Shown here: piece by piece, positions 25,713 to 29,851 of the stretch | Layout: each line of letters opens with the position of its first letter | Position numbering within the stretch: the stretch's first letter is position 1 | Source: Streptomyces sp. NBC_01439 | Lineage (GTDB): Bacteria > Actinomycetota > Actinomycetes > Streptomycetales > Streptomycetaceae | Assembly (NCBI RefSeq): GCF_036227605.1 | Contig: NZ_CP109487.1 | Location: 5,089,501-5,153,500, forward strand | Direction: 5' to 3' | Length of the DNA: 64,000 nucleotides | Notes under the pieces: model-generated | Databases searched by the model: none | What the model was told of the DNA's origin: nothing | Seen by the model: only the letters and a program-made list of their open reading frames with translations | Program-made: the position numbers and the translations under genes

Positions 25713-25720
25713 ACATACAG

Positions 25721-25793
<73 letters not shown>

Positions 25794-25872
25794 ATGCACT
25801 GCATTGCACTGCCGTGAGGCGATGCGTGCATCACTCTACCCGATCCACAATAGTGGTCCGGAAGTGATGCAG

Positions 25873-25944
25873 AGCGGGTGACAGGAATCGCACACTGCGC
25901 CTTCCCTCTGGAAGAGGGATGTTCTGCTACTGAACTACACCCGC
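25873..25944 (-). tRNA. tRNA-Gly(UCC) with non-canonical D and T arms
   Basis: A 72-nt tRNA with acceptor GCGGGTG/CACCCGC, anticodon loop CTTCCAG (UCC, codon GGA) and discriminator U. The D loop reads AGTAGCA, so the usual G18 is A. The T loop reads TGCGATT rather than TTCGAnT, so position 55 is G, and the T stem (CAGTG/CCTGT) pairs poorly. The acceptor, D stem and anticodon stems are perfect, so this is not a decayed gene. Elbow changes of this kind mark the peptidoglycan-dedicated tRNA-Gly of staphylococci. Confidence 0.9.
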
Positions 25945-26032
25945 ACGACCTCGGAGGCTTTGACCTGCGGCCTGGCCCCTTGGCGTGATCCACACACTAG
26001 CCGACAGATGGGGGTGCATGGCAAATCGACGC

Positions 26033-26350
26033 TCAGTGGGCCTCGTTGTAGGCCTCGTAGATCGCCTTCGGGATGCGCCCGCGCGGGGGCACCTCGAACT
26101 GGTTCGACCGGGCCCAGGCGCGGACGACCGCCGGGTCCGGGGCGACGGCGGTGTGCTTGAAGGCCTTCCCCGAGCGCGACTGACGACGGCCGGCGGCCAC
26201 GAAGGGGGCGAGGCCCTTCCGCAGTTTCTTTGCGTTCGCCGCATTGAGGTCGATCTCGTAGGACTTTCCGTCCAGAGCGAACACGACCGTTTCCGTCGCT
26301 TCTCCGCCATCGATGTCGTCGGAGAACGTGACTACTACGCGCTGCGCCAC
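26033..26350 (-). CDS. lsrL: Lsr2-like nucleoid-associated protein (LsrL)
   Basis: A 105-residue homologue of Lsr2, the actinobacterial H-NS analogue that bridges AT-rich DNA and silences acquired genes. The N-terminal dimerisation domain (QRVVVTFSDDIDGGEATETVVFALDGKSYEIDLN) and the C-terminal DNA-binding domain with the AT-hook-like PPRGRIPKAIYEAY are intact. Streptomyces have two such proteins; the copy near the purSQL genes is LsrL (SCO4076 in S. coelicolor, from memory). It starts at GTG with AAGGGA 10 nt upstream. Divergent from purS. Confidence 0.95.
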   Translation of the reverse strand: MAQRVVVTFSDDIDGGEATETVVFALDGKSYEIDLNAANAKKLRKGLAPFVAAGRRQSRSGKAFKHTAVAPDPAVVRAWARSNQFEVPPRGRIPKAIYEAYNEAH

Positions 26351-26924: not shown

Positions 26925-27601
26925 GTGACCACTCGCATCGGAGTCGTCACGTTCCCCGGAACGCTCGACGACCGTGACTCGCTGCGCGCCGTCCGCCTCG
27001 CGGGGGCCGAGCCGGTTTCGCTGTGGCACCGCGACAAGGACCTGCACCAGGTCGACGCGGTCGTCCTCGCGGGCGGCTTCTCCTACGGGGACTACCTGCG
27101 CGCCGGGGCCATCTCCCGCTTCTCGCCGGTGATGGAGACCATCATCGAGCAGGCCAAGGGCGGCATGCCCGTCCTGGGCATCTGCAACGGCTTCCAGGTC
27201 CTCACCGAGGCCCACCTGCTGCCGGGGGCGATGCTCCGGAACAACCACCTGCACTTCATCTGCCGCGACCAGAAGCTGCGGGTGGAGAACGCGGAGACCG
27301 CGTGGACCGGCGACTACACCGCCGGCCAGGAGATCTCCGTACCGCTCAAGAACATGGACGGCCGTTACACCGCCGACGAGCGCACGCTCGACGAACTGGA
27401 GGCCGAAGGCCGAGTGGCCTTCCGCTACCTGGACGGCAACCCGAACGGTTCGCTGCGCGACATCGCAGGCATCACCAATGCCGCGGGCAACATCGTCGGC
27501 CTCATGCCGCACCCCGAGCACGCGGTCGAGCCGCTGATCGGGACGGGCCGCACCGACGGCCTCCCGTTCTTCACCTCGGTCCTGAAGAAGCTGGTCAGCG
27601 C

Positions 27602-27605
<4 letters not shown>
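26925..27605 (+). CDS. purQ: FGAM synthase glutaminase subunit PurQ
   Basis: A 226-residue class I glutamine amidotransferase that delivers ammonia to PurL. The nucleophile Cys87 is in VLGICNGFQ and the catalytic His/Glu pair in GLMPHPEHA. The GTG at 26925 begins [15 protein letters not shown]. The stop overlaps the purL ATG by 4 bp. Confidence 0.97.

Positions 27606-29851
<2,246 letters not shown>

Follow-up and report, generated by a model that had tools for sequence, protein, structure and literature searches.

A conserved, structurally altered tRNA-Gly(UCC) in Streptomycetaceae as a possible glycine donor kept apart from translation

In Staphylococcus aureus, the cell-wall tRNA-Gly described in PMC4052509 carries UU or CU in place of G18-G19, and A49-U65 and A51-U63, weak pairs for EF-Tu, replace G49-U65 and G51-C63. 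The same source lists Streptomyces coelicolor FemX among the users of aminoacyl-tRNA and remarks that how cells with peptide bridges built from aminoacyl-tRNA share it out between ribosome and wall is, in most cases, somewhat unclear. U73 has been argued to shield EF-Tu-free, non-proteinogenic Gly-tRNA from DTD (PMC6097841), and the peptidoglycan of K. viridifaciens is described as containing DAP-linked glycine, with UDP-MurNAc-pentapeptide-Gly among its precursors (PMC8092295). In Bacillus cereus, the pseudo-tRNA tRNA-Other is said to be non-translational, and its deletion altered wall morphology and antibiotic resistance (PMC3399842). A description of the altered Streptomyces tRNA reported here was not found in the open-access literature, to which our search was confined.

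We analysed a 64,000-nucleotide stretch of the genome of Streptomyces sp. NBC_01439 (the window, meaning this whole stretch), in which the Rfam tRNA model RF00005 matches positions 25873-25944 of the reverse strand at 50.5 bits (gathering score 29). This score is the third lowest among the 72 tRNA matches of the genome (one contig, 9.58 Mb), and ARAGORN missed the gene when run on the window. The features of the locus, in window coordinates, are as follows.

25720..25793, reverse strand: ordinary tRNA-Gly(GCC), 79 nt downstream of the altered gene
25833..25838, reverse strand: putative -10 box (TAGAGT) of the GCC tRNA, read from the sequence between both tRNA genes
25873..25944, reverse strand: altered tRNA-Gly(UCC) gene, 72 nt to U73, CCA not encoded
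25889..25900, reverse strand: possible competing T-arm hairpin, GCGC-AGU-GUGC or CGCA-GUG-UGCG, from an energy model and pair counts
25891, reverse strand: position 55 of the altered tRNA, G
25894, reverse strand: bulged U of the T stem, as placed by cmscan
25928, reverse strand: position 18 of the altered tRNA, A
25945..25993, reverse strand: leader between promoter-like element and gene, with the motif CACGCCgAGGGG...GGCC kept across loci in the alignment
25994..26024, reverse strand: promoter-like element, TTGCCA (26024-26019), 19-nt spacer, TAGTGT (25999-25994)
26033..26350, reverse strand: gene for a presumed Lsr2-like nucleoid protein, 105 aa, directly upstream of the altered gene
26934..27605, forward strand: purQ (NF002957, 326.9 bits), start approximate
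27602..29851, forward strand: purL (NF002290, 1047 bits), basis of the species tree

The setting of the gene is conserved. tRNA-Gly(GCC) lies downstream on the same strand in all 64 homologous loci checked, at a median spacing of 80 nt (it was also seen in 39 of 40 further short loci, the remaining one, L130, being cut by a contig end), and a relative of the Lsr2-like protein lies upstream on the same strand in 64/64, at a median of 156 nt from the match end; within the flanks, a PurL frame was present in 52/64 loci and an ABC ATPase in 46/64. ARAGORN, applied to these 64 loci and up to 1.5 kb of flanking sequence, reported a UCC tRNA in nine, one of which is a second copy. We take the product of 26033..26350 to be Lsr2-like from sequence resemblance, and an NCBIfam search of this protein returned no match. 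A similar consensus, TTGC...TAgaGT, emerges when 149 distinct upstream sequences are aligned, and the altered gene appears to possess a conserved promoter-like element of its own. The GCC gene probably has its own -10 box; cotranscription of the two tRNAs is possible, since the GCC gene follows on the same strand. A Streptomyces RNA of Rfam, Scr4115, is also present in this window; together with the presence of Kitasatospora in the same family, it points to Streptomyces as the genus.

Split into its arms, the altered gene reads GCGGGTG TA GTTC AGTAGCA GAAC A TCCCT CTTCCAG AGGGA AGGC GCAG[T]G TGCGATT CCTGT CACCCGC T, with anticodon UCC and U73. Every pair of the acceptor, D and anticodon stems is formed, the D loop AGTAGCA has A at position 18 and retains G19, and the T loop TGCGATT has G at position 55 and retains C56; the G18-U55 elbow contact that is thereby missing is near-universal in tRNA. 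The first-pass annotation of this DNA had recognised a tRNA-Gly(UCC) with these two loops and intact acceptor, D and anticodon stems, which the sequence and the Rfam match bear out, and had called the T stem badly paired, which proved wrong: with one U bulged out, GCAG[U]G/CCUGU forms five pairs (G.U, C-G, A-U, G-C, bulge, G-C), and across 57 distinct homologues this bulged register pairs at 284 of 285 places, compared with 114 of 285 without the bulge. The single miss belongs to genus g10, where two base changes and a bulge shifted by one still leave five pairs plus a bulge.

The homologue set was drawn from 232 BLAST matches in fetched loci, comprising 65 distinct sequences, of which 58 (152 matches) are of UCC type; the other seven were left out, as was L273 (one base shorter, A18/G55 once shifted), giving the 57. 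Among them, pairs are formed at 399/399 places in the acceptor stem, 228/228 in the D stem and 282/285 in the anticodon stem. In 16 sequences, 99.4% of places are paired, a level that none of 500 shuffles attained, and double changes occur at 5 of 21 pairs (shuffled mean 3.0, with 5 reached by 9/500 shuffles). Positions 18 and 55 are A/G in 52 homologues, G/U in five and mixed in none, the five G18/U55 sequences coming from two early-branching genera (g2 and g5), while positions 19 and 56 are G/C in 57/57. Pair 51-63, the third of the T stem, is A-U in 57/57, and 49-65 is G.U in 51 (the window gene included) and A-U in six; EF-Tu binds at the T stem, where the bulge sits. Positions 32 and 38 form a Watson-Crick pair in all 57 (C-G in 30, U-A in 27), and the 3' strand of the T stem, CCUGU, is invariant in 57/57 next to loop positions that vary. 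The glycine identity set of anticodon UCC, G1-C72, C2-G71 and U73 is complete in every one of the 57, with U34 likewise invariant.

An initial DNA search matched 150/150 genomes of the genus, and a covariance model built on 16 homologues matched 391 of 392 sampled genomes of what is presumably Streptomyces (E 1e-18 or better), the sole miss (G660) being a draft of about 160 contigs. In some genomes the gene is present twice or three times, mostly as tandem copies; those at L097, L098, L099, L100, L101 and L102 lie about 115-160 bp apart, start to start. Of 101 family genomes sampled evenly, 77 were positive with the model, the altered tRNA scoring at 86 bits or more and other matches at 72.6 or less. 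The 24 genomes without it comprise 20 of genus g14, three of genus g11 and G175; the last was set aside as a third loss, and its locus is probably absent from the assembly, because a purL match is missing too. At the Lsr2-like locus of g11 and g14 (L222, L229, L230), two tandem GCC tRNA genes are found and the altered gene is absent. This GCC-GCC arrangement, used as a pattern, identified 33 named contigs (18 Kitasatospora, 14 Streptomyces and one Streptacidiphilus sp. ASG 303), and the altered tRNA was not found in the genomes of the 18 of these 33 contigs that were searched. By identical coordinates, the g14 genome G222 is K. cheerisanensis (G550), the g14 genome G192 is Streptomyces sp. NRRL B-24484 (G560) and the g11 genome G159 is Streptacidiphilus sp. 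ASG 303 (G559), and we infer that g14 as a whole is Kitasatospora.

In a PurL tree of 29 genomes, three of them outgroup genomes in which the altered tRNA is absent, g2 and g5, with bulge and G18-U55, form a single early clade (support 100/96), every A18/G55 genome falls in its sister clade (support 95/88), and g14 and g11 are separate groups within that sister clade. The g2 and g5 sequences (L269, L270, L271, L272, L274, L275, L276), which combine a bulged T stem with canonical G18-U55, look like evolutionary intermediates. The simplest history starts from a family ancestor whose tRNA already had the bulge, followed by a single joint switch at 18 and 55 and then by two losses, and it fits vertical descent. 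Wider distribution beyond the family was also considered and rejected, as the covariance searches gave nothing above the ordinary level there. Run on 394 class genomes, a UCC-Gly pattern in which position 55 is changed, and which fixes the acceptor ends and U54 and would let other designs escape, found 40, all of genus g1, and 0 of the 354 outside g1 (reversed-pattern control, 0). The best match of the covariance model outside the family scored 73.6 bits and is an ordinary tRNA by sequence, and a further covariance search gave 28 g1 genomes at 97-104 bits and two others at about 73.

The genome has, besides the altered UCC gene, three GCC, one CCC and one ordinary UCC gene for glycine tRNA. 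It had been objected beforehand that a sole UCC gene would have to serve translation; the ordinary tRNA-Gly(UCC) at G000:C1:6255532-6255602 (75.7 bits, as against 50.5 for the altered gene, both by RF00005) removes this objection, and because of it the altered copy looks redundant for decoding. The two are identical in acceptor stem, D-loop length, anticodon and U73, whereas the ordinary gene has G18-U55, an unbulged T stem, G51-C63 and C32-A38, at each of which the altered gene differs. A second odd tRNA was seen at G000:C1:1808845-1808917 (forward strand; L299:8846-8918), with Cys-type anticodon GCA, 54.8 bits and an encoded CCA; its D loop, AGTAGCCA, lacks G18 and its T loop, GGCAGGA, lacks U54/U55. 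ARAGORN missed it, ordinary Cys tRNAs exist elsewhere in the genome, and genes nearby encode, among others, a GH38 mannosidase, a beta-lactamase-family protein and a sugar ABC transporter. Two further low-scoring matches, at G000:C1:2535638-2535710 and 888016-888088 (50.9 and 38.4 bits), were given by ARAGORN as one with a four-base anticodon CGCA and the other as Asp(ATC).

The reading that we favour, while rating it somewhat below an even chance, is that Streptomycetaceae possess a dedicated glycyl-tRNA that is charged with glycine, kept out of translation and most likely feeds FemX. GlyRS would charge the altered tRNA, the glycine identity positions being retained; EF-Tu and the ribosome would make poorer use of it, given its bulge, its A51-U63 pair and the lack of a G18-U55 contact; U73 may protect the free Gly-tRNA from DTD; and the consumer would be FemX, which attaches glycine to diaminopimelate in peptidoglycan precursors. 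A FemX orthologue is present in this genome. The idea that the altered tRNA tracks FemX presence was rejected: FemAB (PF02388) occurs in 100 of the 101 family genomes, all 24 that lack the altered tRNA among them, the sole miss being a 410-contig draft that carries it (G170), and no FemAB copy number tracks the altered tRNA across the 101. The FemX proteins of G214 (g14) and G172 (g11) are 77.6% and 68.0% identical to that of this genome, with several common neighbours around the gene in G214 and an adjacent common frame in G172. Since g14 and g11 keep FemX and K. viridifaciens, considered here by its published wall chemistry, is described as having DAP-linked glycine (PMC8092295), FemX can apparently use ordinary tRNA-Gly, and the altered tRNA is not obligatory for the bridge across the family. 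The first-pass proposal of a non-translational cell-wall donor thus survives in part: the molecule is probably not an ordinary translational tRNA, and it is not strictly required for the bridge, as g14 lacks the gene and keeps FemX. The altered tRNA may be a specialised form that reduces wall-ribosome competition, or a donor for another transferase.

That last option, a non-translational glycyl-tRNA whose main consumer is a different glycyl-tRNA transferase of the family, lost alongside it in Kitasatospora and g11, is in our judgement unlikely. It would account for the independence of FemX presence from the altered tRNA and for the two losses on the tree, as expected were a dispensable partner pathway lost, but the partner was not found, one candidate having been examined for parallel loss. 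Parallel loss of this candidate, a second MreB/Mbl gene, was not supported: at E 1e-40, a single MreB/Mbl-family match is present in 20/20 g14 genomes and two or more in 73 of the 81 other family genomes (among genomes with the altered tRNA, seven show a single match and one shows none), so that the Mbl paralogue is missing in all g14, but two matches occur in 3/3 g11. The single match in Kitasatospora (g14, by the assignment above; e.g. G162, G214 and G222) is recorded here as an observation in its own right. A similarly low probability attaches to a minor isoacceptor that still serves translation, its elbow and T stem having drifted to a new, self-consistent form (A18 with G55, bulged T stem) that perhaps tunes GGA/GGG decoding in certain conditions. 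Such a tRNA would be expected to keep its UCC anticodon, U34 included, as all 57 do, along with intact acceptor, D and anticodon stems and G19-C56, and the GCC tRNA gene is next on the same strand; the lost G18-U55 contact, the bulge at the EF-Tu-binding T stem, the weak A51-U63, the Watson-Crick 32-38 at the anticodon loop and the ordinary UCC gene in the same genome nevertheless argue against it.

A regulatory or decoy RNA, that is, an uncharged or cleaved tRNA-like transcript with a refolding T arm and no role as amino-acid donor, is considerably less probable still. When all stems but the T stem are constrained, the energy model gives the 52 A18/G55 forms an alternative T arm that is better by 3 to 8 kcal/mol, and in the five G18/U55 forms the best fold essentially retains the T stem, with a difference of only 2 to 3 kcal/mol; the full competing hairpin, in either register, can form in 49 of the 52 and in none of the five. 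A T-arm switch between cloverleaf and competing hairpin is possible on the model. The same energy model, however, does not give a cloverleaf for the ordinary UCC tRNA either, the cloverleaf is favoured because the CCUGU strand is invariant beside variable loop positions, and the charging determinants and U73 are invariant. As for a decaying pseudogene or a sequencing error, the low Rfam score and the missing ARAGORN call could be cited in favour, but conservation across hundreds of species, compensatory changes and the conserved upstream element reduce the probability to next to nothing. The first-pass annotation had taken the intact stems as an argument against decay, in agreement with the 391 of 392 genomes, and had allowed for a local mutation in case orthologues had canonical loops; altered loops occur in 52 of the 57 orthologues, the other five keeping G18-U55, and local mutation, like decay and error, is ruled out by the genome counts and the compensatory pairs. 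That the gene is neither decaying nor, probably, an ordinary translational tRNA is well supported.

The cell-wall donor role itself is what we infer from these features, and several of them weigh the other way: the five bulged sequences with an ordinary elbow, the retained G19 and C56 and the G49.U65 of 51 of the 57 count against a donor, and the invariant U34, for which a strictly non-decoding role has no obvious need, speaks against such a role. A more far-reaching form of the donor proposal, which we regard as possible and hold with rather less confidence, is that two-step remodelling (a T-stem bulge, then the joint 18-55 swap) made an independent actinobacterial cell-wall glycyl-tRNA that is normally charged and largely invisible to EF-Tu; the swap from G-U to A-G may also permit the alternative T-arm fold. 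If this is true, Streptomyces would therefore separate wall from ribosomal glycine by RNA shape, and Kitasatospora would have given that up. The ordinary UCC tRNA as internal control and the natural losses in Kitasatospora and g11 make the question of supply directly testable in Streptomyces, and the gene documents, across a bacterial family, how the 18-55 elbow contact changed stepwise and jointly.

Staphylococci belong to a different phylum from Streptomyces. Their non-proteinogenic tRNA-Gly species, the FemXAB donors, are by description likewise extra beside ordinary tRNA-Gly and likewise have G18 replaced. The tRNA-Other of Bacillus cereus differs in situation, being described as lying beside a genomic island (PMC3399842), whereas the altered tRNA occupies one conserved locus across the family. 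The differences from the staphylococcal molecules, as the latter are characterised in PMC4052509, are that G19 is kept here and position 18 is A, not U or C, in the 52 switched sequences, that A49-U65 is found in only 6/57, and that G55 and the T-stem bulge are on the Streptomyces side. Shared with them are A51-U63 (PMC4052509) and U73 (PMC6097841), each in 57/57 here, and the anatomy of the altered tRNA, which lacks G18-U55 and has A51-U63 and U73, resembles that of the staphylococcal cell-wall tRNA-Gly as described in PMC4052509.
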